A stretch of 64,000 nucleotides of DNA from Cystobacter fuscus (GTDB lineage Bacteria > Myxococcota > Myxococcia > Myxococcales > Myxococcaceae): NCBI RefSeq assembly GCF_002305875.1, contig NZ_CP022098.1:9610001-9674000 (forward strand), read 5' to 3'. Below are positions 9,402 through 44,902 of this stretch, piece after piece. The first letter of the stretch is position 1, and the number at the start of each line of letters is the position of its first letter. A program made the position numbers and the translations under genes. The notes under the pieces are model-generated. The model did no database searches and was not told the DNA's origin. It saw only the letters and a program-made list of their open reading frames with translations.

Positions 9402-9754
9402 AGGTAGTAGCCAAACTCGCCGAGCACCACGAGCTCGAAGGTCCCCTCGGGCCACGAGTCCGGCAGCAGCCGCTGCTCCACCCGAACATGCGGCCAGGGC
9501 GCCAGGCGCCTCCGGGCCACGCGCACCGCCGCCTCGCTGCCGTCACCCACCAGCAGGGCGTCACAGCGCGCCGCCAGCTCCGCGCTCAGCTCGCCAATCG
9601 AACACCCCGGCTCGAACGCACGCGCATAGCGGGCATGCGGCAACATCGCCAACGTCAGCGCCCGCTTGCGCCGCTCGTACCAGCGCCGCCGGTACTCCCA
9701 GGGGTCCTCGCTGTCGGCGTACATGCGCTCGAAGTGCGCCATGGGCACGCTCAT
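9402..9754 (-). pseudogene. NodS-like SAM-dependent methyltransferase, duplicated 5' part
   Basis: Begins [20 protein letters not shown] at 9754 and is identical to the first ~117 codons of the intact methyltransferase at 31753-32352. It includes the SAM-binding [15 protein letters not shown] motif. It is cut at 9402, where IS91-like transposase sequence begins, so the C-terminal ~80 residues are missing. Its start overlaps the stop of the neighbouring PIG-L copy by ATGA, as in the intact operon. It is almost certainly non-functional. Confidence 0.9.
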
Positions 9755-10460
9755 GTGAACACCACCTCGAAGGGCCGCATCAACCGCTCGAGCGCGTAAG
9801 GGGGCACGATGGGCGGGTTTCCCGTGGTGGAATCCGGCTCCAACTGGCTCACGTACGCCTCCATGGCCCGGCGCTTGAGCGCGAGCGTGGCCTCGTCCAA
9901 CTCGATGCGCCGCGCCCGGGACCAGGGCACCCGCGTGTCTCCGGGCCGGGCCCAGTGCCACATCCAGATGGGGAACTCCACGCAGCGGCCGTCCAACGCC
10001 GCACACGCCCGCGACGCCGCCCGCCCCACCGCCTCATGGTCCGGGTGTCCATCCAGGCGCCACGTGGCCAGCACCACGTCGTCCGGACGAAGCCGCGCGC
10101 CCAACCACTCCACCAGCCGCTCCTCGTTCTCGGTGACGGCGCCATCGGGAATCCCCACCCGCTCCACCCGCGCCCCGCCCAGCCCGAGCCGTTGCAGCGC
10201 CTCCTGCGTCTCCCGGGGCCGCGTCCGCGCGAGCCGCTCCACCGGCCAGGAGGTGGACCCCGGATGGCTCGCCGTCCCATCCGTGACGGCGAGAACCAAC
10301 ACGTCCCGCCCGAGCCGACCAAGCCGCGCGAGCAGCCCTCCGGTCCCGAGCACCTCGTCATCCGGATGGGGCGCGACGATGACGGCACGCCGGCCCTCGG
10401 GCACCAGCAGGGCGGGCTCCAGGGAAGGCAGGACGTCCAGGCCACTCCAGGCCTCCCAGT
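9751..10460 (-). pseudogene. PIG-L family deacetylase, duplicated copy lacking its N-terminus
   Basis: The frame matches the intact gene at 32349-33110 from residue ~18 to the stop. It includes the zinc-binding [17 protein letters not shown] motif and the GHPDHEAVG motif. The beginning (MEPVNSRRIFDEG and the next few residues) is missing because IS91-like tail sequence starts at 10461. In the reading direction the frame continues upstream into IS sequence ([13 protein letters not shown]). I see one difference in the 1059-bp duplicated block, G to A at 10318, which leaves the glycine codon unchanged. Confidence 0.9.
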
Positions 10461-10680
10461 GCGGGCGTGGTGCTGAACCTGGCGCAGCCGCTGTCAACAC
10501 GCCCCAACTCCCCTGCCTCTCTCCTCAAGCGAGGGCGGCCAGGGCAGGGGTGTGCCCCAAGGGGTTGCACCGCCCCGTGTACTGGCGCGGCGCGCGGCCT
10601 TGCTAGCCCCGGCAGCGGCCCTTCTCGGCCTCTCCGCTCCAGCCCTCACCCTCAACATGGCTTCTATCCCGCCTATACGC
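10461..10680 (+). mobile_element. IS91-like terminal module, copy B (right end of the capture element)
   Basis: The module starts at the transposase stop region (gcgggcgtggtgctgaacc) and runs to the common end cccgcctatacgc. It is nearly identical to copies C, D and E. With the transposase part at 8215-9401 it brackets the captured 9402-10460 block. The overall arrangement is an IS91-like element whose transposase middle and C-terminus were replaced by host DNA. Confidence 0.8.
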
Positions 10681-10713
10681 CGAGGCGCGATAGAGGGTGG
10701 CGGCTCAGCACAA

Positions 10714-10747
10714 CCTGCCGCCGCAGCGTCACTTCTGCGGCGGCAGG
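10714..10747. terminator. Perfect 13-bp inverted repeat (hairpin)
   Basis: CCTGCCGCCGCAG at 10714-10726 is followed by an 8-nt loop and its exact complement at 10735-10747. No U-tract follows on either strand. It may act as a transcription or mRNA-structure barrier between the IS91-like end and the amidohydrolase gene. The 10681-10985 stretch otherwise holds no gene, only this hairpin and the putative operator at 10848-10866. Confidence 0.5.
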
Positions 10748-10847
10748 CTCTCTCGCAAGTTTACTTGCCGAATGGAAGGCGCGCAGCTGGGCCGAGCGCC
10801 TCTGGGGCTGGGCCGCGAGCTTGTTGCCGACCCAGCTCTGAACCGCA

Positions 10848-10866
10848 GCATGCCCGATAGGCATGC
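10848..10866. promoter_or_regulatory. Palindromic site, candidate LysR-type operator
   Basis: GCATGCC-N5-GGCATGC is a perfect 7-bp inverted repeat and contains a T-N11-A LysR box (T at 10851, A at 10863). It lies ~120 bp upstream of the amidohydrolase start. The decamer GGCATGCTAG (10860-10869) recurs at 13751-13760, just upstream of the lysR-type gene. The regulator probably binds both sites, controlling itself and the enzyme. This is an inference from motif sharing. Confidence 0.5.
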
Positions 10867-10985
10867 TAGTCCCTACCAACAAGTAGTGTTCCGGGATTTT
10901 CTTCCGTACGAGACTCTCACCCAAGGCAGATCACTTGGCCCTCTGCTGGCCTCCCCATGCAACCCTCTGCCGTGAAAAAGGACCC

Positions 10986-12785
10986 ATGTCTGCACTCCGA
11001 CTCCTGGCTCTCTCGCACCTGTTGCTCGCCGGCCTCCCTGCGCGTGGAGACGAGCTTCGTCCCGGGGCCGATCTGATCGTTTTCAACGCGAAGATCACCA
11101 CTCAGCACCTGGCGCAGCCGGCGGCTTCCGCGGTCGCGATCAAAAGAGGGCGGATCTACGCAGTGGGCGACGACGCCGAGATCCTCGCCCTCAAGAACAG
11201 CAAAACCCAACTGATCGATGCGGAGGGGCATCGCCTGATCCCGGGCCTCAATGAAGCCCACGTCCACGTGCTGAATGAGAACAACTACAACTACAACGTG
11301 AGGTGGGACGGGGTTCCCACCTTGAGCCGCGCCCTCGAGATGTTGAAGGAACAGGCCAAAAGAACGCCCAAGGGCCAATGGGTCAAGGTGATCGGGGGTT
11401 GGTCGCCGTATCAGTTCAAGGAGAACCGGTTCCCGACCCCGGAGGAGCTGAACGCCGCGGTACCTGACCGGCCGTACATCGTTCAATACGCCTACAACCA
11501 GGCGTTCTTGAACGAGTTGGCGATGAAGGAGATCGGCGTGGGAACCCCCAAGTTCCAGATGCCGCCCGGCACGGAGTTCGAGAAAGACAAGCAAGGCAAG
11601 TACACCGGCGTCGTGCGAGGGTTCACCTGGACCTTCGTGGCGCTCGAAGCGGTGGTCCCGTTGCCTTCCTTCGAGGAGAAGGTGAACTCGCTCGCCTACG
11701 CGATCAACGACTTGAACCGGTTCGGAGTGGTATCAGCGCTGGAGTCCGGCAGCATCATCCCCTACCCGGAAGGGCACAAGCCCATTGAAGCCCTGATCAA
11801 GGATCAGCGTTTGAACGTTCGTTTGCCTTTCATGGATCTCCAGCTCGTCGAGCCCGGCGCTTCGATGGTGGACGCCGAGATCGATGCCATCACCCAGAAG
11901 TCTCCGACCAGCCCCGGGGACAACACGCACCCAACCCTGGCGCATGGTCACGAATACCAAACCAACGGAGAAGTGCTGAACGCCCAACTCCACGACCATG
12001 AGAACTTCGACCGGCCGGCGGTGGTGATCGATCGGGAACTCATGCGAAAGACCGTCGAAGAGGACGTGGGCAAGCTGGTGAAGCGGCGAAGCCCGTTCCG
12101 GATGCATGTCAGCTACGACGAGAACATCTCTCCATTCCTGGATGCTCTGGAATCGCTGAACAAGAAAATGCCTTTCGACGGCCTGCGGTGGAGCATCGAG
12201 CACGCCGAAACGATCAGCCCGAAAAACATCGAAAGGATCAAGAAACTGGGCGGCGGAATCGCGCTGGACGACAAGATGGCGCTCCACGGAGACGGCTTCA
12301 TCAAGACCCACGGCCGCGAGGTGGCCCTGCAGACGCCTCGCTTGCGTCAGCTCGTCGACAGCGGGATCCCGCTGGCCATGACCACCGACGGATTCAGGGC
12401 TTCTTCTTACAACCCGTGGGTGGCTATCCAGTGGATGGTCACCGGCAAGTCGGTGTCGGGCTCGGAGATCCTGGCCAAGGACAACCGCCTGAGCCGGGAA
12501 GAGGCGCTCAAACTCTATACTTTGGGTGCCGCGTGGTTCACCAAGACCGAGAACGAGAGCGGGAGGATCGCGCCGGGCAACCTAGCGGACTTCGCGCTGC
12601 TGAGCACCGACTACTTCTCGGTGCCGGAAGGGGAGATCCAGCACATCACTTCCGTGATGACCGTCGTGGACGGGAAGGTCGTGTTCGGTGCGGGCAAATA
12701 CAGCAAACTCGCTCCGGAACTGCCGAAGATCATCCCGACGTGGTCCCCGATCAAGTACTTCGGCGGCTACTCTGGCGCGAAATGA
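10986..12785 (+). CDS. Exported amidohydrolase (YtcJ-like metal-dependent hydrolase)
   Basis: The product is 599 residues with a signal peptide (MSALRLLALSHLLLAGLPARG). A composite domain follows (DLIVFNAKITT, KRGRIYAVGDDAEI), then the first metal motif HVH at residues 92-94 (LIPGLNEAHVHVLNEN). Later come a His in WSIEHAE and an Asp in MTTDGF, and the C-terminal beta domain (GNLADFALLSTDYFSVP) closes the protein. These are the marks of the YtcJ branch of the amidohydrolase superfamily, which hydrolyses amide or related bonds; the substrate is unknown. The start at 10986 follows AAGGA. Codon use is less GC-biased than in neighbours, suggesting acquisition. It converges with the LysR gene. Confidence 0.88.
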   Translation: MSALRLLALSHLLLAGLPARGDELRPGADLIVFNAKITTQHLAQPAASAVAIKRGRIYAVGDDAEILALKNSKTQLIDAEGHRLIPGLNEAHVHVLNENNYNYNVRWDGVPTLSRALEMLKEQAKRTPKGQWVKVIGGWSPYQFKENRFPTPEELNAAVPDRPYIVQYAYNQAFLNELAMKEIGVGTPKFQMPPGTEFEKDKQGKYTGVVRGFTWTFVALEAVVPLPSFEEKVNSLAYAINDLNRFGVVSALESGSIIPYPEGHKPIEALIKDQRLNVRLPFMDLQLVEPGASMVDAEIDAITQKSPTSPGDNTHPTLAHGHEYQTNGEVLNAQLHDHENFDRPAVVIDRELMRKTVEEDVGKLVKRRSPFRMHVSYDENISPFLDALESLNKKMPFDGLRWSIEHAETISPKNIERIKKLGGGIALDDKMALHGDGFIKTHGREVALQTPRLRQLVDSGIPLAMTTDGFRASSYNPWVAIQWMVTGKSVSGSEILAKDNRLSREEALKLYTLGAAWFTKTENESGRIAPGNLADFALLSTDYFSVPEGEIQHITSVMTVVDGKVVFGAGKYSKLAPELPKIIPTWSPIKYFGGYSGAK

Positions 12786-12807
12786 CGAGCTGTTCCGATG
12801 AGAGGCG

Positions 12808-13731
12808 TCAGACGATGAGCAGACCTGCCGCCGGACGAAGCGACTTCAGCTTCACGGCGGCCAGGGTGGCCAGGAAGTCGGTCCCTGCCGAGGACAGCTT
12901 GGCTTGATCGTAGATCACCACGACGGGCAGCCTGGGCGGGGCCGGCAGCACCGGACGGAAGTTGAGCCGGCTGCCCGCGAGCTTCGCCATCGTCTCGAAG
13001 CCGATCGCGACGCCTTTGCCGGACTCGACGGCCGCGAAGAGACTGGAGATCCCGTCGCACTCCATCACGATGTTCGGCTCCTCGGTGAACCCGGAGAGGA
13101 TCTTCCGGATCGCCGAATGAGCCTCCGGGTGCTCGCTCTTCGTGAAGGTGATCAGCCCTTCCTTCGCGACTTCGGCCAACGGCACTTGCTTCAGCTTCGC
13201 GAAACGGTGCTCTTTGGGGAAAGCCACGGTGACGCCGTAGCTTCCGAGCTCTTTCATCGCCAGCCCCTCGAATGACTGGGGAGCGACGCCGATGGTGATT
13301 CCGAGATCCAGCTTCAGATCCCTCACGCCGCGGACGATCCCGTTGCTCGACAGGTCTTTGAGCTCGATCTGGATCGATGGATGCTGCTTGTGGAAAACCC
13401 GCATCGCTTGCTTCAGGATTTCCACGGCCGGCGTGGCGGCGAATCCGATCCTCAGGATGGACCGATGCGAAGGCGATTTCCGTCGCACCTTCTCGACGGC
13501 GTCTTCGACCCGACGGAGGATGACCTTGCATTCGGCGAGAAACACCTTGCCCGCTTCCGTCAGAGCGATGGAATTGGGATATCGCTCGAGGAGATCGACT
13601 CCGAGTTCCTCCTCCAAGTCGCGGATTTGCCGGCTGAGCGCAGGTTGAGAAACATGAAGCAGTTGCGCCGCGCGGGTCACGCTGATCTGCTCGGCAACCG
13701 CCGCGAAATACCTCACGTGTCTGAGTTCCAT
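12808..13731 (-). CDS. LysR-family transcriptional regulator
   Basis: The product is 307 residues. The N-terminal winged helix-turn-helix (residues 1-60: MELRHVRYFAAVAEQIS, AAQLLHVSQPALSRQIRDLE) is followed by the co-inducer-binding domain (~90-300). The start at 13731 gives the canonical MELRHVRYF opening. It converges with the amidohydrolase across a 22-bp gap, and the two promoter regions share the decamer GGCATGCTAG, so it probably controls that gene. The GC content is similarly moderate, which suggests that the pair entered together. Confidence 0.9.
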   Translation of the reverse strand: MELRHVRYFAAVAEQISVTRAAQLLHVSQPALSRQIRDLEEELGVDLLERYPNSIALTEAGKVFLAECKVILRRVEDAVEKVRRKSPSHRSILRIGFAATPAVEILKQAMRVFHKQHPSIQIELKDLSSNGIVRGVRDLKLDLGITIGVAPQSFEGLAMKELGSYGVTVAFPKEHRFAKLKQVPLAEVAKEGLITFTKSEHPEAHSAIRKILSGFTEEPNIVMECDGISSLFAAVESGKGVAIGFETMAKLAGSRLNFRPVLPAPPRLPVVVIYDQAKLSSAGTDFLATLAAVKLKSLRPAAGLLIV

Positions 13732-13750
13732 GATCGCAGCATAACCAAAA

Positions 13751-13760
13751 GGCATGCTAG
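13751..13760. promoter_or_regulatory. Second copy of the GGCATGCTAG half-site
   Basis: The decamer is identical to that at 10860-10869 and lies 20-29 bp upstream of the lysR start on the complementary strand. It fits an autoregulation site, though only half of the palindrome is present. Confidence 0.35.
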
Positions 13761-13784
13761 CGGCACCCAAAGGTATTTACCGGC

Positions 13785-14842
13785 TCAGCGCGTGAGGGCC
13801 ATGACGAAGATGCGCTGGCTCTGGGGTGTCTCCTCGCACGTGCCATCCACGGCAGGCACGTAGCCTAGCCCCACCACCCGCACTCCGTATCGGGCGTGGG
13901 AGGCCACGGAGTGCACCTTCGGCAGGCACAGCTCCGGGACCATGTCTTTCACGGCGCGCTCCCACTGCTTGCTCCCCGTCCAGGACAGGGCCACCACCGA
14001 GTTCGCCTCGCCTCCTGCCACAATCATCCCCAGAGCGTCCGTGGTGATGGCTCTGGGCTGACCGGGGATCTCCCGGGTAGGAATCCCGGTGGCCACCGCG
14101 CCGAGCGGCTTGCCTTGGCCCGAGAACCGCACCATGACGAAGTCATCGCCGAGCGGGATGACACTCGTTCCGAAGGTGAAGCCCTCGGAACGGCTCCGGC
14201 GTCCCACCACTCCCAGCTGTCCATCCGGAAGCTCCGCGGGATTCTCCTGTCCGAAGATGGGGAGGACGTGCGACCAGAGCGGCTCGAAGGACTCGGACCG
14301 CCGGCTGAGCTTGCCGTCTCCCCAGCTCAGCAGCGTGGACTGGCTGACGTGCGTCAGGTACGGCGGAGGAGGATTCACCATCACATCGGTCAGCACCTGG
14401 TTCATGGCGTCGCGGCGCTGCATGGAGGGCCACTGGACTCCCGCGCCATGATAGAGGCAGCGCGAGATCCAGAAGTCCTCGCCCGAGGTGGCGACTCCTG
14501 TAGGCACGTATTCGATGCCCAGGCTGCGGGTGCAGGCGCCCTGCCCATCCATCAGAAGCAGCCGGTTGGCTTGCTTGCCGTCGAGCACCTCGGCGCAGCC
14601 GAAGTCGATGCTGGTGGTGCCATATTCACGCTCCCAGGAGTTGACGATGAGGAAGCCCTCACCCCGGGGATGGACCTCGTAATACCAGGGGAACTCCCCG
14701 TTGCGGACGTTGGGCGCGACGCCGGGAGCACGGTGCTGCCACAGCATCTGGCCGTCGGGACTCCACCCCCTCCACTCCAGGGTGGACAGAAAGCGCGTAT
14801 CGGGCGCGATGTTCAGATCGATCTGCGTGAGCACCCCCGTCT
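13785..14842 (-). pseudogene. Secreted/propeller-like protein lacking its N-terminus
   Basis: The frame encodes ~350 residues with repeated W/G-rich segments (LEWRGWSPDGQMLWQHRAPG, IGIEYVPTGVATSGEDFW, GLGYVPAVDGTC), similar in style to myxobacterial PQQ- or propeller-like secreted proteins. It runs open to the edge of an IS91-like module at 14843. Signal peptide and beginning are therefore missing; ATG at 14834 (MLTQIDLN) is only the first internal Met. Probably non-functional. The exact family is not recognised. Confidence 0.6.
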
Positions 14843-15033
14843 GCTGTCAACACGCCCCAACTCCCCTGCCTCTCTCCTCAAGCGAGGGCGGCCAGGGCAG
14901 AGGTGTGCCCCAAGGGGTTGCACCGCCCCGTGTACTGGCGCGGCGCGCGGCCTTGCTAGCCCCGGCAGCGGCCCTTCTCGGCCTCTCCGCTCCAGCCCTC
15001 ACCCTCAACATGGCTTCTATCCCGCCTATACGC
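14843..15033 (+). mobile_element. IS91-like terminal module, copy C
   Basis: Only the non-coding tail from gctgtcaacacgccccaac to the common end cctatacgc. It lies between two minus-strand genes, one missing its 5' part (13785-14842) and one missing its 3' part (15034-15743). That is what a deletion between the IS end and a distant site would leave. Confidence 0.8.
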
Positions 15034-15743
15034 TCCACGTTGTTGTAGTCGAGGTTCGTCCAGATCTCGCCGACACAGAAGTCCGGCTTCATGTCGTCTT
15101 GATAGAGCTTCGCGTAGCCGGGGGCATAGCCCTTGGAATAGTCAAAGCGGATGCCGCTGAAGCCCACGCCCTTGAGCCGGCTGGACAGCCAGCTCTTGAT
15201 GTCCGCCTGGACGGTGGCGTTGCTGTGATCCAGGTCCCGGGCGGCGCTGTAGCCATCTCCCGAGTCCGCGGCGCCCGTGGAGCAATTGCACTCATCGCCA
15301 GCGGCGATGGAGTACGTGCCCCAGGTCGGGTTGGTGAAGTCATACCAGCCGGTCGACCCCACACGGTGGTTGATCACCACGTCCGCGACCGACTTGATGC
15401 CGGCGTTGGAGAAAGCGGTGATGGCGTTCTTCAGGTCGGTCTCGCTGCCATAGCTGGAGTTGAGGACGTTCAGCTGGCGCGGCAAGTAACCCTGCGTGGA
15501 GGCCGCGTCGGAGGGCGGCGGGAGCCACACGTGGGTGAAGCCCATGGCGCCCAGGTCGCTCGCCTTGCCCTGCAGGACGTTGTACCAGTTGGGATTGGCG
15601 TAGCTGGCCGAGTTCCAATGGAAACCCTGCACCAGGATGGCCGTGCTGGCCTGGGTCTGCTGGGTGGCCGCGACGGCCTCCCGGGCAGGTACCACACAGG
15701 CCAGCGCCAGCGCGGCGTACGACATCCACTTCGAGCGATTCAT
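15034..15743 (-). pseudogene. Alpha-amylase (GH13), N-terminal ~236 residues only
   Basis: It starts with a signal peptide (MNRSKWMSYAALALACVVPA). Recognisable GH13 elements follow: ILVQGFHWNS, VWLPPPSDAAS, conserved region I DVVINHR, region II GIRFDYSKGY with the nucleophile Asp, and region III VGEIW with the acid/base Glu. It is cut at 15034 by the IS91-like tail, so region IV with the third catalytic Asp and the C-terminal beta domain are lost. The closest type is a maltooligosaccharide-forming extracellular amylase. It should be inactive. Confidence 0.85.
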
Positions 15744-30723: not shown

Positions 30724-31037
30724 ATGTGACGGCCCCCGTTGGGGTGCGCTCGATATTGGAGCACCTGGGACTTCCCACGCAGGCTCTGAAGCGGGCCCCG
30801 GCCCGGGGACCACCCCAGCGGGCGTGGTGCTGAACCTGGCGCAGCCGCTGTCAACACGCCCCAACTCCCCTGCCTCTCTCCTCAAGCGAGGGCGGCCAGG
30901 GCAGGGGTGTGCCCCAAGGGGTTGCACCGCCCCGTGTACTGGCGCGGCGCGCGGCCTTGCTAGCCCCGGCAGCGGCCCTTCTCGGCCTCTCCGCTCCAGC
31001 CCTCACCCTCAACATGGCTTCTATCCCGCCTATACGC
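30724..31037 (+). mobile_element. IS91-like terminal module, copy E
   Basis: It begins at atgtgacggcccccg within the transposase C-terminal region (VGVRSILEHLGLPTQALKR) and ends at the common cctatacgc. It is nearly identical to copies B-D over the tail. It has replaced the 3' part of the IS1182 transposase. Its right boundary is 66 bp from the end of the four-gene operon. Confidence 0.8.
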
Positions 31038-31102
31038 CATTCATGATGAGCGCCTTCTAGCAGCCCGGCGCCCTCCCGCGGCCCATTCGAGCCACGGAGA
31101 CG

Positions 31103-31756
31103 TCAGTCGACCTCCAGTCCGTTCAGGTAGTCACCAAAGCCACCTCGGGCTCGCGCATCGCGTCGTGCGCTCGTCAGCACCCGCGCCCGGGCGCTCCAGG
31201 CGATCCGCGCTCCGGAGCGTCGCAGCGAATCGACGAGCGCCACGTCTTCGTGAGCGGACAGCGGCGGAAAACCCCCTGCCCCCACGTACGCCCGCGTGCG
31301 CACCCCCAGGTTGGCGCCATGGATGTGCGAATGGCCGTCGATGTCCTGGTAGGCCGACTCGTAGCGGCGACGGGCGCGCGCGCTGTGCGGTGACCAATCC
31401 CCCACCTCGACGACGCCACAGACGACGTCCACATCCAGCGCAAGTTGCACCGCCAACCAGTCCGGAAAGACGCGGCTGTCGGCATCCGTGTTGGCCAGCC
31501 ACCGCGCCCCCTGCGCCCGCAGCACCCTACACCCCAGGGCGCGCGCCTGCCCCACGTTGCGCGCCTCCACGCACAGCGTGTTCACCCCCCAGCGCCGGGC
31601 CACGCGCGCACTGCCGTCCGTGCAATCGTCCAACACCACCACGCTCCGCACGTCTTCACCCAGGAGCGCGGGATGTATCGACGCGCGGACCACCGAGGCC
31701 AGGCACTCCTCCAGCAGCGATTCCTCGTTGTGGGCCGGAATCACGACACCAATCAT
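31103..31756 (-). CDS. Family 2 glycosyltransferase
   Basis: The product is 217 residues. It has a GT-A nucleotide-sugar binding start (MIGVVIPAHNEESLLEECLA), VVVLDDCTDGSARVA, the DxD-like DADSR (WLANTDADSRVFPDW) and the later HGANLGVRTRAY and HEDVALVDSLRRSG that line the acceptor site. It would add a sugar to an unknown acceptor at the inner membrane face. The ATG overlaps the stop of the upstream methyltransferase (ATGA), so the start is firm. It is the last gene of the operon read from 34165. Confidence 0.88.
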   Translation of the reverse strand: MIGVVIPAHNEESLLEECLASVVRASIHPALLGEDVRSVVVLDDCTDGSARVARRWGVNTLCVEARNVGQARALGCRVLRAQGARWLANTDADSRVFPDWLAVQLALDVDVVCGVVEVGDWSPHSARARRRYESAYQDIDGHSHIHGANLGVRTRAYVGAGGFPPLSAHEDVALVDSLRRSGARIAWSARARVLTSARRDARARGGFGDYLNGLEVD

Positions 31757-32352
31757 CGCAGGTGCTCCCTCCGGGCCACGGAGTCCGCGCCGGGTGACCA
31801 CATCTCAAGCAGGAAATCCTCCTCCTCGTGTCGCGCCAGGCGGTGCAGTCCCCGGGCGCGGCCGAGCACCTCATGCACCTCGTCTCCGGTGAGAGGGGCC
31901 TCCGCGATGGGCGGGCGCCAATGGCACGCCACCAGGACGCCCTCCGGGGCGAGCGAGCGTACCGCGCGCTCGCGCACCCCCAGGAGCGCCTTCGCGTCCA
32001 GGTAGTAGCCAAACTCGCCGAGCACCACGAGCTCGAAGGTCCCCTCGGGCCACGAGTCCGGCAGCAGCCGCTGCTCCACCCGAACATGCGGCCAGGGCGC
32101 CAGGCGCCTCCGGGCCACGCGCACCGCCGCCTCGCTGCCGTCACCCACCAGCAGGGCGTCACAGCGCGCCGCCAGCTCCGCGCTCAGCTCGCCAATCGAA
32201 CACCCCGGCTCGAACGCACGCGCATAGCGGGCATGCGGCAACATCGCCAACGTCAGCGCCCGCTTGCGCCGCTCGTACCAGCGCCGCCGGTACTCCCAGG
32301 GGTCCTCGCTGTCGGCGTACATGCGCTCGAAGTGCGCCATGGGCACGCTCAT
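31753..32352 (-). CDS. NodS-like SAM-dependent methyltransferase
   Basis: The product is 199 residues beginning [20 protein letters not shown], with the NodS-type opening [19 protein letters not shown]. The class I SAM motif [15 protein letters not shown] is followed by acidic D/GDGSEAAV and the [15 protein letters not shown] motif. NodS methylates the deacetylated amino group of lipo-chitooligosaccharides. Pairing here with a PIG-L deacetylase suggests N-methylation of a deacetylated amino sugar, which is inference. Both ends overlap neighbours by 4 nt. Its first part is duplicated at 9402-9754. Confidence 0.88.
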   Translation of the reverse strand: MSVPMAHFERMYADSEDPWEYRRRWYERRKRALTLAMLPHARYARAFEPGCSIGELSAELAARCDALLVGDGSEAAVRVARRRLAPWPHVRVEQRLLPDSWPEGTFELVVLGEFGYYLDAKALLGVRERAVRSLAPEGVLVACHWRPPIAEAPLTGDEVHEVLGRARGLHRLARHEEEDFLLEMWSPGADSVARREHLR

Positions 32353-33110
32353 GTGAACACCACCTCGAAGGGCCGCATCAACCGCTCGAGCGCGTAAGGG
32401 GGCACGATGGGCGGGTTTCCCGTGGTGGAATCCGGCTCCAACTGGCTCACGTACGCCTCCATGGCCCGGCGCTTGAGCGCGAGCGTGGCCTCGTCCAACT
32501 CGATGCGCCGCGCCCGGGACCAGGGCACCCGCGTGTCTCCGGGCCGGGCCCAGTGCCACATCCAGATGGGGAACTCCACGCAGCGGCCGTCCAACGCCGC
32601 ACACGCCCGCGACGCCGCCCGCCCCACCGCCTCATGGTCCGGGTGTCCATCCAGGCGCCACGTGGCCAGCACCACGTCGTCCGGACGAAGCCGCGCGCCC
32701 AACCACTCCACCAGCCGCTCCTCGTTCTCGGTGACGGCGCCATCGGGAATCCCCACCCGCTCCACCCGCGCCCCGCCCAGCCCGAGCCGTTGCAGCGCCT
32801 CCTGCGTCTCCCGGGGCCGCGTCCGCGCGAGCCGCTCCACCGGCCAGGAGGTGGACCCCGGATGGCTCGCCGTCCCATCCGTGACGGCGAGAACCAACAC
32901 GTCCCGCCCGAGCCGGCCAAGCCGCGCGAGCAGCCCTCCGGTCCCGAGCACCTCGTCATCCGGATGGGGCGCGACGATGACGGCACGCCGGCCCTCGGGC
33001 ACCAGCAGGGCGGGCTCCAGGGAAGGCAGGACGTCCAGGCCACTCCAGGCCTCCCAGTCCCGAGCCGAGGTGCCCTCGTCGAAGATGCGCCGCGAATTCA
33101 CAGGCTCCAT
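32349..33110 (-). CDS. PIG-L family N-acetylglucosaminyl deacetylase-like protein
   Basis: The product is 253 residues. The N-terminal zinc motif [17 protein letters not shown] and the C-terminal GHPDHEAVG are the signatures of LmbE/PIG-L enzymes, which remove acetyl groups from amino sugars. The start at 33110 (MEPVNSRRIF) lies inside the end of the acyl-CoA dehydrogenase gene (13-nt overlap), and its stop overlaps the methyltransferase start. Residues ~18 onward are duplicated at 9751-10460. Confidence 0.9.
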   Translation of the reverse strand: MEPVNSRRIFDEGTSARDWEAWSGLDVLPSLEPALLVPEGRRAVIVAPHPDDEVLGTGGLLARLGRLGRDVLVLAVTDGTASHPGSTSWPVERLARTRPRETQEALQRLGLGGARVERVGIPDGAVTENEERLVEWLGARLRPDDVVLATWRLDGHPDHEAVGRAASRACAALDGRCVEFPIWMWHWARPGDTRVPWSRARRIELDEATLALKRRAMEAYVSQLEPDSTTGNPPIVPPYALERLMRPFEVVFT

Positions 33111-34165
33111 CCACCCGCTCCTTCCTTCACCACGAGTCCCGCCAGGGCCTCCAGGTCCCGCTCCGCGTGGCTCTGGCGCAAGAACACCGGCAGGTCCGCC
33201 ATCCGCCGGGCCACCCGCGCGTCCCGACAGTAGGGACCCGCGCCCACGGCCCGGCCCGTGTGCCGCAGCACGAGCTCCGCCGCGGCCTCCACCCCGGCTC
33301 GCGCCCGCCAGGCGACGAGCGACGCATCCTCCCGGGGATGCGCATCGATCCACGCCGCGGCCTCACGCAACAGCGCCCGCGCTCCACCGAGGGCGGTGTC
33401 CACCGCGCCCAGGTGCGCGCGGGCGTGGGGCTCCTCGCGCCGGGCACAGTGCGCGCGCAGCGTCTCGCCCACCGCCGCCGCCGCGCCATACCAGCACGCG
33501 GCGATGCCCGCGCCGCCCTGCCAGAAACCCGGCCGCGCCGTGTAGCCGCCCGGCGGGCCCACGCGCGTGCCCACCGCGCCCTCGAAGAGCACGTCCACGC
33601 TGGCCGAGGACGCCATTCCCACCGCGTGCCACCCCTCCTTCGTCACGCGCACGCCCGCCTGCTTCATCGCCACCGCCACGAGGCACTGCCGCTCCTCGGC
33701 GTCCCAGGCCGTCACCAGCGCATGGCTGACCTGCGGCGCCCCCGAGCACCACGCCTTACGGCCGGACAGCTCCACCCGACCGTCCGCGCGTCCGCTCACC
33801 CGCACCCGGGCCTGGGGAGGCTCGGAGGCCCAGACGCCCCAACTGCTCCCGGCCGGAGGCGGCTCGGCGCCCAGCTCCGCCAGGATGGCGAGCGCATCCG
33901 TATGACCCTCGAACAGCTTGATGAGGCCCAGGTCCACCGCCGCCACCGCCGCCAGGGCCCGCCACCGCAGCAGGGTCTGGCCCCGCCCGGGCAGCGGCAG
34001 CGCCCCGAAGCCCCCGGAGAGGAGTTGCTGGAGCCCACGCGCCGGAGCGAGCCCCACGGGCTCCTCCGCAGGGCCCTCCAGTCGCCCCAGAAGCAACTGG
34101 AGTGCCTCGATTGAGAAGTGTTCTTCCTGGTGCGCCGACTGCTCGCGAAGACCGCTGGAGTACAT
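33098..34165 (-). CDS. Acyl-CoA dehydrogenase-like flavoprotein
   Basis: The product is ~355 residues. It has an N-terminal helical domain, a central beta domain (VSHALVTAWDAEERQCLVAV, GVRVTKEGWHAVGMASSASV) and a C-terminal helical bundle (HARAHLGAVDTALGGARALL, ARAGVEAAAELVLRHTGRAV). It is typical in layout of the acyl-CoA dehydrogenase superfamily. It heads the operon ACAD / PIG-L / NodS-like / GT2, an association I recall from other bacteria. The pathway product is unknown. The start at 34165 is chosen because further upstream lies only antisense of an IS4 remnant. Confidence 0.75.
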   Translation of the reverse strand: MYSSGLREQSAHQEEHFSIEALQLLLGRLEGPAEEPVGLAPARGLQQLLSGGFGALPLPGRGQTLLRWRALAAVAAVDLGLIKLFEGHTDALAILAELGAEPPPAGSSWGVWASEPPQARVRVSGRADGRVELSGRKAWCSGAPQVSHALVTAWDAEERQCLVAVAMKQAGVRVTKEGWHAVGMASSASVDVLFEGAVGTRVGPPGGYTARPGFWQGGAGIAACWYGAAAAVGETLRAHCARREEPHARAHLGAVDTALGGARALLREAAAWIDAHPREDASLVAWRARAGVEAAAELVLRHTGRAVGAGPYCRDARVARRMADLPVFLRQSHAERDLEALAGLVVKEGAGGWSL

Positions 34166-34405: not shown

Positions 34406-34759
34406 GTGAGTTCCAAAGCTATCAACGAGCAGCAAGTCCATGCCTTCCTCTCGGGCCTCTTCGGCCAGGATGTCCACACCATGCGCGTGTTGTCCCTGTC
34501 GCTCGCGACTCTGGGCATCATCCATGCCGCCAGCCGCCTTGGATTGGATTGGACGGACTACGACGATGATGACCAGACGACCCTGGTCGCCTCTCTGATG
34601 ATCCAACACGACGCCCCACGCCGCTCGTCTGGCTCACGATGCAGAAGTCCACGCTCAAGGGGCCGCGCAATGATGCGGTCGAGAGTCCAGGTCACCTTGT
34701 TGGCGGACCGCGGCTTCGCGGATGAGAAGAGCACCACACCGCCCGTGTTCCTCGGGTGA
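34406..34759 (+). pseudogene. IS4-family transposase remnant with frameshifts
   Basis: The frame AINEQQVHAFLSGLFGQDVH, then LGLDWTDYDDDDQTTLVASL, carries the conserved first Asp region of IS4/ISMxa-like DDE transposases. Matching pieces continue out of frame (PLVWLTMQKSTLKG) and back (VTLLADRGFADE, the second Asp region). At least two frameshifts are present, and the C-terminal half is missing. Confidence 0.75.
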
Positions 34760-34943
34760 GCCGGCGATGAAGCAGGCCCCAGTTGGAGCCTCACGAAACG
34801 GCTCGGGCCCGGTCCGTTTTCATTTGGAGACGGCGAAGCGTGTCTATGTCTGGAATGAAACAGCTCCGTCATGAGCAGCCGGGCAGGCGTGAACGACTCC
34901 AGCGGAGCTTGTCTGTGAGAACAGGCTCCCCATCCTTCAGGGC

Positions 34944-35099
34944 ATGAACCTGATCGTCATTCTACTGGTCCTGGCGCTGATCTTCGGAGGAGTGGGTCTG
35001 TTCGTGGAGGGGCTGAAGTGGCTCCTCATCGTCTCGGCCGTCCTCTTCGTGGCGAGTCTCGTGAGTGGCTCGGTGGGCCGCGGTCGTCTGCGCGCCTGA
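34944..35099 (+). CDS. Small hydrophobic membrane protein, 51 residues
   Basis: A short gene starting MNLIVILLVLALIFGGVGLF and ending VGRGRLRA. Two hydrophobic helices flank a short EGLKW turn. Proteins of this size and pattern are widespread in high-GC bacteria without known function. A transcription terminator follows at 35139. The start codon lies after TTCAGGGC, a weak ribosome-binding site. Confidence 0.6.
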   Translation: MNLIVILLVLALIFGGVGLFVEGLKWLLIVSAVLFVASLVSGSVGRGRLRA

Positions 35100-35138
35100 C
35101 GCCGCGAATCAAGACACTCCACACATGAAGCATCCACC

Positions 35139-35170
35139 CAGGGGCTCCTCTCACGAGGGACCCCTTTTTC
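35139..35170 (+). terminator. Rho-independent terminator
   Basis: An interrupted stem (AGGGG with CCCCT, plus CCTC with GAGG) closes on TCAC and is followed by TTTTTCTTGTT. It is placed 40 bp after the small membrane protein gene. This is one of the clearest intrinsic terminators in the window. Confidence 0.75.
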
Positions 35171-35245
35171 TTGTTCGCGCCGGGTGAAAAGGCCTTCACC
35201 GGCGCCCCCCAGAAGTGTCTGCCTTTGCACGTGAAGGAGGACTTT

Positions 35246-35763
35246 CCCCCAAGCAGGTGCGGAGGAGAGGAGCGTGACGCGCCCCCAGGTAGGAGCAGAG
35301 GAGGCGAGCGAGGCGCCGGAGGCAGGGGCGAGGCAGGAGCGGAGGAAGGAGAGGACGCCGCCAGTAGACTTTCGCGGGGCTGCTGCGCAGGACATTCGCG
35401 GTGGACGGGCTTCACCTGCGTCAGGTGTGGAGGCAGGCGGCGGGTGCTGGCGTACGTGAAGCAAGCCAGAGGGGTGCGCGCAATTTTGGAGCACCTGGGC
35501 TGCCCACGGCAGGTGCGAGCCTGACCCCGGCGCGAGCCCCACTCCAAGACGCATGGTGTTGAGGCTGACGCCGCCACAGCCAAGAGACCTGATGCCCCTG
35601 CCGCGCTCCTCATGGGAGGGCCGCCTGGGCAGGCATGCCCAAGGAGGCTGCTTGGCCTCTGCACCGGCCCGGCTCACAGCTCGGCCGGCACCCGTCAGCG
35701 GCCCTCCTCGGCCCCTCTGCACCTGCCCTCCCCCTCAACACGGCCTCTCTCCTGCCTATACGC
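35246..35763 (+). mobile_element. IS91-like terminal module, divergent copy G
   Basis: It begins ccccaagcaggtgcggagg, sequence also found at the truncation point of the transposase at ~9360. It carries a diverged, frameshifted C-terminus (VEAGGGCWRT / VLAYVKQARGVRAILEHLGC), then a tail that resembles copy F and ends gcctatacgc. It belongs to a related but different IS91-like subfamily from copies A-E. Confidence 0.65.
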
Positions 35764-36045
35764 TCGAGTCCCTCGTGCTCCGCGTAGGCGACGATCCGCT
35801 CCAGGGCCTTGGGCGCGAGGTGGACATCCGCGTCGCTGAAGAGAATCCACTCGCCGCTCGCGCGCTCCAATCCCCGCTGCATGGCATGGACCTTTCCCAG
35901 CCAGTCTGCGGGGAGCTGCTCGATGTGGACCACCTGGAGCCGGGGCTCCTCCTGGGCGAAGCGATCGGCCAGGGAGCCCGTCGCATCCGTCGAGCGGTCA
36001 TTCACCAGGACCAGCTCGAGCTCGGGATAGGAGTGGCGCGAGTGC
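35764..36045 (-). pseudogene. Family 2 glycosyltransferase, internal fragment
   Basis: The frame reads SYPELELVLVNDRSTDATGS, then AMQRGLERASGEWILFSDAD, both GT-A motifs (NDRSTD and the DAD metal site). It is cut at 35764 by the IS91-like end and begins abruptly near 36045, where the acetyltransferase gene ends. Both N- and C-terminal parts are missing. Confidence 0.65.
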
Positions 36046-44211: not shown

Positions 44212-44439
44212 GGAGGGTAGCGTGCCACACACTCCGCCCTCCCAAGAGTGCGGGCTTGCATCCATCCCACAGCACATTTTTCCGGTTCGGGACTGCGGCG
44301 CCCTCCATGCAGAAGCAACCCGCGCGCGTATCTCCTTGAATTCACAGCGGAGACTCGGATTGAGGGGGTTCGGCACGGCGGATGCTAAAGCCATCCTCGC
44401 GGACGATGTGGGTCCGGTGGATGGGGCAGCACGGGGCAG

Positions 44440-44639
44440 TACGGGGTCGGGCGGGTCGGGGCGGTACGGGGTCGGGCGGGTCGGGGCGGTACGGGGTCGG
44501 GCGGGTCGGGGCAGTACGGGGTCGGGCGGGTCGGGGCAGTACGGGGTCGGGCGGGTTGGGGCAGTACGGGGTCGGGCGGGTTGGGGCAGTACGGGGTCGG
44601 GCGGGTCGGGGCAGTACGGGGTTGGGCGGGTCGGGGACG
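44440..44639. repeat. Tandem repeat, 25-bp unit x 8, G-rich
   Basis: The unit is tacggggtcgggcgggtcgg then ggcag or ggcgg, repeated about eight times with a few single-base changes. It lies within the 690-bp gap between 44212 and 44902, which otherwise shows no convincing gene. Each unit holds several runs of three or four G on the plus strand, so G-quadruplex formation is possible. The open frames across it are low-complexity artefacts. Confidence 0.85.
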
Positions 44640-44902
44640 GACGTAGGTAGCGAGTGGGAGTGACCGCTCGCGGATACGGCTCGGGGAGTAGGGGACGGGG
44701 AAGGTTGGAGCCGGTCCTCGCTGGTGAGTTCAACCGCGAGGGCCGGTGCACCCCTTGAAACGCGACATGCAGAAATCGGGAACGCACCACGGCGCGCGCT
44801 TCGCGCTCACGGCCGTGGTGCGCACGCGGAGAACAAGGACATTGCTCCGGACCCCGCTCGTATCCCATGCTCGGCCCTCTTCGTGATTGGGGGCGGGATC
44901 GC

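Follow-up and report, generated by a model that had tools for sequence, protein, structure and literature searches.

The enzymes considered here have their closest described counterparts in Nod-factor synthesis (NodS and NodB), among the PIG-L/LmbE deacetylases (diacetylchitobiose deacetylase, BshB and MshB), among the class D flavin monooxygenases (DszC, TdsC and MsuC) and, by neighbourhood, in the desiccation-tolerance genes of Acinetobacter (KatE, DtpC and trehalose synthesis). The nitrososynthases DnmZ and KijD3 are class D flavin monooxygenases that act on amino sugars. The locus under study lies in a 64,000-nucleotide (nt) stretch of the Cystobacter fuscus genome (the 12.35-Mb contig NZ_CP022098.1, positions 9,610,001 to 9,674,000), hereafter the window, and consists of four minus-strand genes read from 34165 to 31103: an acyl-CoA dehydrogenase (ACAD)-like gene, a PIG-L gene, a NodS-like methyltransferase (MT) gene and a GT2 gene. 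As in Nod-factor synthesis, a NodS-family MT is accompanied by an adjacent sugar de-N-acetylase and GT2; unlike that system, the window has PIG-L in the place of NodB, and the context of the gene set is stress, not symbiosis. The set is read here as a horizontally mobile cassette of the stress regulon that would build a small N-methylated, oxidised amino-sugar glycoside, and this reading is given roughly an even chance of being correct.

The genes were delimited as follows: the ACAD-fold flavoenzyme (33098-34165, 355 amino acids (aa)), the PIG-L/LmbE-family N-deacetylase with intact PHPDDE and DGHPDH motifs (32349-33110, 253 aa), the NodS-like S-adenosylmethionine-dependent N-methyltransferase (31753-32352, 199 aa) and the small GT2 glycosyltransferase (31103-31756, 217 aa). 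An earlier reading of the DNA made from its letters alone (the sequence-only reading) had described four genes tightly overlapped by 4 or 13 nt: the coordinates and the successive overlaps of 13, 4 and 4 nt were confirmed, and Pfam confirmed the GT2 (PF00535, 3.3e-16), the NodS-type MT and the PIG-L (PF02585, 2.5e-26). The overlaps recurred among 84 loci: the ACAD and PIG-L genes overlapped by 13 nt in 37 and by 4 nt in 28 of the 75 loci with both genes, PIG-L and MT by 4 nt in 55/78 and MT and GT by 4 nt in 47/61, counts that depend on a script, which chose the start codon closest to the expected position. When the window operon was compared with those of a congener (G002) and of a myxobacterium of another genus (G120), non-synonymous divergence (dN) was lower than synonymous divergence (dS) in 8/8 gene comparisons.

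Amino-sugar chemistry is supported for the deacetylase, the MT and the GT2. PIG-L scored 93.1 bits against PF02585 (cut-off 28.2), its residues H49, D52, H156, D158 and H159 were invariant in 25 aligned sequences, and its nearest solved structures were diacetylchitobiose deacetylases (8bgn, 1.2e-17). It thus shares with the PIG-L/LmbE deacetylases the family, the metal-site motifs and, probably, an N-acetylamino-sugar substrate; it differs from them in that it is neither BshB nor MshB by curated cut-off and has the MT, the GT2 and the ACAD-fold enzyme as regular partners. The MT matched PF05401 (NodS) at 2.7e-9 (37.6 bits, cut-off 24) and the NCBIfam NodS equivalog at 47.8 bits (cut-off 300). 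Its nearest characterised solved relative was NodS (3ofj, 9.4e-26), followed by phosphoethanolamine methyltransferases (3.4e-12); a direct family member, the methyltransferase 4isc (1.6e-75), is listed in the PDB with no named function. In the GT2, the DxD and ED residues (D91, D93, E170 and D171) were invariant in an alignment of 24 sequences.

A second architecture was found in Rubrobacter and seven other actinobacterial loci, in which PIG-L is absent from the locus and a CE4 deacetylase lies upstream of the ACAD-fold gene; other actinobacteria retain PIG-L. In the two CE4 deacetylases that were scanned, NodB was the best match (113 and 123 bits, cut-off 240), a further likeness to Nod-factor synthesis. 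Among 50 loci found with the ACAD profile, 36 had PIG-L, seven CE4, none both and seven neither; among 141 loci, many of them found via PIG-L, the counts were 124, 8, 0 and 9. The replacement refers to the locus, and the CE4 loci are distant from the window operon (ACAD about 30% and MT 39-50% identical). Two unrelated deacetylase folds in one slot support a step that removes an N-acetyl group from a sugar, and this exchange is the best evidence here for that step. Deacetylation, N-methylation and glycosyl transfer, as proposed before, are thus supported by the NodS and diacetylchitobiose deacetylase relatives and by the CE4 exchange in eight actinobacterial loci. The resemblance to Nod-factor chemistry held for the deacetylase, NodS-like MT and GT2 parts and went no further: the NodS and NodB equivalog scores lay below their cut-offs, and no NodC model was among the NCBIfam matches of the 217-aa GT2 at E values up to 0.1. 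A nodulation role was rejected on the missing NodC match, the PIG-L in the place of NodB and the stress neighbours.

In the proposed pathway, the GT2 would transfer an N-acetylated amino sugar to an acceptor, PIG-L would then remove the acetyl group, and the NodS-like enzyme would N-methylate the freed amine. The ACAD-fold flavoenzyme would finally oxygenate the product, perhaps at that same nitrogen. The substrate and this order of steps are inferred, and the cassette would belong to the general response to stresses such as drying, stationary phase and oxidative damage.

The ACAD-fold protein matched only the middle domain PF02770 in Pfam (26.1 bits, under the cut-off of 33.3). Its best matches in a profile search were three monooxygenases, TdsC (3e-11), DszC (2e-9) and MsuC (3e-9); a Thermus ACAD (1e-6) and the nitrososynthases (about 1e-5) came further down. 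The predicted model (pLDDT 90.7) confirmed the ACAD fold. Motifs were aligned in 59 ACAD sequences, taken from the window, 49 of the 50 sampled loci and nine annotated loci: His88 was present in 59/59 and Ser141 in 58/59, and in the profile-search alignments Ser141 aligned with Ser163 of DszC and His88 with a His of TdsC. In this motif alignment, none of the 59 sequences had a Glu at positions 332 or 216, the usual catalytic Glu sites of MCAD/SCAD or IVD; position 335 was Glu in 36/59. A flavoprotein akin to the ferredoxin/rubredoxin reductases of oxygenases followed the MT in 7/8 CE4 loci, and the eighth locus runs off its contig. A class D oxygenase-like role is therefore favoured with moderate confidence, because of the best profile matches, the His88 and Ser141 alignments and the absence of the usual ACAD Glu, and the protein is most likely a class D monooxygenase-like oxidase, not a fatty-acyl dehydrogenase. 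The likeness to DszC, TdsC and MsuC covers the fold, the SG motif, a His in the N-terminal helical domain and the best profile matches; the differences are an identity of about 20%, a shorter protein (355 against about 400 aa), the lack of a CE4-locus-type reductase near the PIG-L form, and a second DszC active-site His that is unmatched family-wide.

Several observations weigh against an oxygenase. The structures 5gj7/5z8t (9e-9) and the cysteine dehydrogenase ColB1 (2e-8) stood close behind in the profile search; 5gj7/5z8t are deposited as an ACAD type 2 domain protein, and 5z8t is titled flavin-containing monooxygenase in the Foldseek listing. The first Foldseek match was 5gj7, a putative ACAD. 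In the fold comparison, monooxygenases and true ACADs scored alike (Z 32.5 to 31), and the two could not be separated by fold alone. His333, considered as the counterpart of an active-site His of DszC, was rejected, as only 37/59 sequences carry it. In a search restricted to reductases of the CE4-locus type, none was found near the PIG-L loci (0/124).

The cassette is widespread and patchily distributed. In profile searches (E limits 1e-20 for Myxococcota and 1e-30 for Pseudomonadota and Actinomycetota), an ACAD-type gene was found in 29/398 Pseudomonadota, 21/296 Actinomycetota and 4/195 Myxococcota genomes; each count includes the genome at the centre of the sample, and phyla were assigned by the named loci that these central genomes contain. 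A first locus set was made of the best 80 loci from a PIG-L scan of genome contigs, mostly from Caballeronia, Variovorax, Pseudomonas, Oxalobacteraceae and Halomonadaceae, with two actinobacteria. In these loci, found via PIG-L, ACAD and MT genes stood alongside in 74/80 and a GT2 in 58/80; in loci found via the ACAD profile instead, an MT was nearby in 48/50. Four phyla have ACAD-type, deacetylase and MT genes side by side, in part inside stress islands: Pseudomonadota, Actinomycetota, Myxococcota and Deinococcota, the last without a GT2 in view. No gene cluster outside the cassette recurred in more than 16 of the 80 loci.

Genes of stress survival were enriched near the cassette. Strict markers (catalase, trehalose/glucan, LigD/Ku and DtpC-like genes) were found near 16/40 sampled loci and in 0/40 control windows from the same genomes (Fisher p 4.7e-6), the sample comprising all 29 Pseudomonadota matches and the 11 best Actinomycetota matches; one control window held a marker that does not count as strict. 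Of the 80 loci in the first set, 36 had some marker and 31 a strict marker within about 8 kb. Individual neighbourhoods on annotated plasmids were as follows: an Acinetobacter ursingii plasmid carries KatE, a DtpC-like iron redox enzyme, the cassette and OtsAB; Comamonas antarctica has the gene run OtsA-ACAD-PIGL-MT-GT-OtsB; the cassette or part of it lies beside Ku/LigD/RpoH in Bradyrhizobium, beside CsbD/YqjD in Pandoraea, and beside a catalase in Sulfitobacter, Novosphingobium, Cupriavidus and Paraburkholderia. No such markers were near the Roseomonas, Sphingobium and two Deinococcus loci. Counted genome-wide, whatever the distance to the cassette, a catalase-domain match occurred in 19/19 genomes behind 20 named loci. 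The neighbours thus point in several lineages to stress survival, not nodulation, and in part to a pathway unrelated to the Nod-factor type; stress survival is most likely the biology of the cassette, and is best supported in Pseudomonadota.

Other features of the survey count against a link to stress. Strict markers were uneven between phyla (14/29 Pseudomonadota, 2/11 Actinomycetota) and absent from 24/40 sampled loci. The markers were chosen after the first loci had been seen, at least three of the 40 genomes were already in the first set, related Pseudomonas were over-represented, and one control window was only 348 nt long. No markers were found at the ten weakest actinobacterial matches, which lay outside the 40-locus test and included all seven CE4 loci of the sample, and no Caballeronia or Variovorax locus of the 80-locus set had a strict marker. 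Among six loci with PIG-L and no cassette, two also carry strict markers, so that the complete cassette is not alone in showing the linkage. Finally, 29 marker queries gave no match in the window or around the operon or its fragment in three relatives from the same genus (G001, G002 and G003) and in G120 (L120-L122, L127). At L041 and L052, a close PIG-L homologue stands beside LigD or glucan/trehalose genes and neither an ACAD nor an MT is near; the same stress islands may thus include a PIG-L by itself.

Expression data are available from Acinetobacter. In Table 2 of PMC5660220, A. baumannii ACICU_02432-02435 form one operon (glycosyltransferase, SAM methyltransferase, LmbE protein and ACAD-related) that was down 31- to 62-fold, with OtsA, OtsB and catalase, in two colistin-dependent mutants; these genes were matched to the cassette by name and order. 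As a point against the stress reading, the data come from colistin-dependent mutants, not from drying (PMC5660220). Beside the operon, ACICU_02436 was down 138- to 227-fold (PMC5660220), and we infer that it is a DUF2171 gene. Another A. baumannii strain (L268) has all four homologues in the same order with DUF2171 divergent upstream; this divergent gene was seen in two Acinetobacter loci (L106 10488-10721; L268 4486-4716). In Acinetobacter, the same four genes neighbour blsA or AnBLUF65, which encode BLUF photoreceptors, together with a BOF gene (PMC6240043, PMC9020721), and DUF2171 is also in that neighbourhood (PMC9020721), a likeness to the cassette loci; the parts of both papers covered here describe the surroundings only and give the four genes no function. 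In Bradyrhizobium, too, there is a BLUF-domain gene, some 6 kb from the cassette (L112 1947-2378). DtpC and KatE are reported to protect dried A. baumannii (PMC13232832). The cassette shares an island with these desiccation-tolerance genes in A. ursingii and regulation with such genes in A. baumannii; unlike them, it has no desiccation phenotype reported in the literature covered. That literature, in which long listings were covered in part, mentions the four genes in an expression table and in gene-neighbourhood listings, none of which assigns a function.

The rival explanations differ mainly in what the ACAD-fold enzyme does. An oxidase or dehydrogenase acting on the N-methylamine or the sugar, with an imine or keto product and the same pathway minus oxygen insertion, would fit the tie in fold and the nearness of ColB1, a dehydrogenase of the ACAD fold; the three best profile matches, the Ser141 and His88 alignments and the reductase that accompanies the CE4 form argue against it, and we regard it as unlikely, if still credible. 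A true acyl-CoA dehydrogenase that makes or desaturates the fatty acyl chain of a deacetylated, N-methylated lipo-aminosugar is somewhat less probable again. The fold comparison does not set the protein apart from true ACADs, NodB/NodS-like partners occur, and in Comamonas genes for an acyl-CoA synthetase and a CoA-transferase lie at a distance of a few kb. Against these stand the absence of Glu at the usual catalytic positions, for which acyl supply by the ACAD was rejected, and the middle-domain score under the Pfam cut-off. In addition, no acyltransferase was among the ten neighbour clusters scanned (a search of proteins of at least 100 aa, so that most carrier proteins fell outside it), and NodA (PF02474) was unmatched in the window genome, as it was in the control genomes. 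The sequence-only reading had supposed that the ACAD supplies or desaturates an acyl chain, an idea that the TdsC/DszC/MsuC matches and the 59 sequences do not support; of its small acylated amino-sugar product, the deacetylation, methylation and glycosylation were retained and the acylation was not.

A low-molecular-weight thiol or redox-buffer pathway of the bacillithiol or mycothiol type, entered through the PIG-L deacetylase, would suit the stress neighbourhood, and BshB1, BshB2 and MshB were among the NCBIfam matches of PIG-L. Their equivalog scores were far below the cut-offs (BshB1 52 against 182 bits, MshB 22 against 224 bits), and membership was rejected on these cut-offs; the glycosyltransferase is a GT2, not the GT4 of BshA/MshA, and with no fifth gene in more than 16/80 loci there is no constant ligase like BshC or MshC. 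Such a pathway is very improbable. The genes might alternatively tailor a secondary metabolite or a surface glycan and merely share genomic islands with stress genes. Over half of the loci lack strict markers, sphingomonads have extra glycosyltransferases, and the cassette is found on plasmids and beside repeated elements, all of which such tailoring would accommodate. Separate lineages each show the linkage, with different stress genes, and the A. baumannii genes share their regulation with OtsAB and a catalase whose locus numbers are far from theirs (PMC5660220); with these points set against it, tailoring is improbable, to about the same degree as the oxidase or dehydrogenase.

Copies of the cassette are decaying within the genus. 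A partial duplicate (9402-10460, minus strand) contains PIG-L from residue 18 on, its first 17 residues missing, and the MT up to about residue 118, where it is cut; its 1059 nt are 99.9% identical to 32000-33058. It abuts the end of a repeated element (10461-10681) that is 100% identical to a second copy (30818-31038) located 64 nt past the GT2 stop. In the sister genome G001, whose operon is otherwise 99.6-99.7% identical, the MT gene has lost a net 163 nt from its interior: window positions 32184-32342 are missing, with a 4-nt overlap at the join (L120 8902-8905). An 836-nt stretch upstream of the operon (34665-35500) is also absent in G001, the flanks being joined with a 4-nt overlap. In the sister species G003, no ACAD-type gene was found by the ACAD profile search and only the truncated PIG-L/MT block is present, in a colinear 5.6-kb stretch (L122 4698-10337 against window 9402-15034, 99.7%). 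Since the block occupies the same colinear place in the window genome (G000) and G003, it either dates from their common ancestor or passed between the two; since G003 has the block and no ACAD-type gene was found there, it was not made recently in the window genome alone. The earlier claim that the operon donated the block at 9.4-10.5 kb is plausible for an ancestral operon but not established for the present one, G003 having the fragment without the operon.

The four myxobacterial rows (G000, its congeners G001 and G002, and G120) formed one clade (support 100/98). The patchy distribution and the single myxobacterial clade suggest that the cassette was acquired, and in this myxobacterium it seems to be an acquisition that can be dispensed with: the MT gene is broken in one sister genome, and another has the fragment only. 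A sensor histidine kinase gene of G002 (L121 10725-12056) has its end 33 nt upstream of the ACAD-like gene, if the latter starts at the first TTG, and could be co-transcribed with the cassette or regulatory; the window carries other DNA at that place.

Variants of the cassette and other features were also recorded. On two Deinococcus plasmids (L108 3193-5532, L109 4448-6820), the ACAD-like protein of 779-790 aa carries about 400 additional aa at its N terminus, a domain that matched no family confidently (PF07745 at E 0.012, under the cut-off, in one); a link between this domain and a glycosyltransferase-annotated sphingomonad gene was rejected (BLASTP E 3.0). Directly before the cassette, on its upstream side, two sphingomonad loci (L118 5057-8185, L119 5162-8224) have three more genes annotated as glycosyltransferases, which suggests a larger saccharide there. 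In the Caballeronia locus L008 (9439-12703), LacI-type, GlcNAc 2-epimerase-type and PfkB-type genes follow a cassette without GT2; the epimerase-type and kinase-type clusters each occurred in 13/80 loci. Upstream of the window operon, another GT2 gene fragment lies on the same strand (35610-36005, PF00535, 2e-14), its end overlapped by a repeated-element-like stretch (35335-35763), and a tandem array of a G-rich 25-nt unit was found at 44394-44668.

A more specific proposal has the cassette producing a sugar hydroxylamine or nitrone, that is, an N-methyl-N-oxygenated amino-sugar glycoside, as a small molecule that traps radicals when cells are dried or stationary; plasmids and islands would have spread the cassette, in several lineages along with catalase, trehalose and end-joining repair genes. 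This proposal is a long shot, slightly less probable than the lipo-aminosugar. We know of no such class of bacterial antioxidant. If the main reading, that of a stress-linked amino-sugar glycoside, is right, many stress-tolerant bacteria would share an unrecognised protective metabolite, and amino-sugar chemistry of the NodB/NodS type would exist outside symbiosis.

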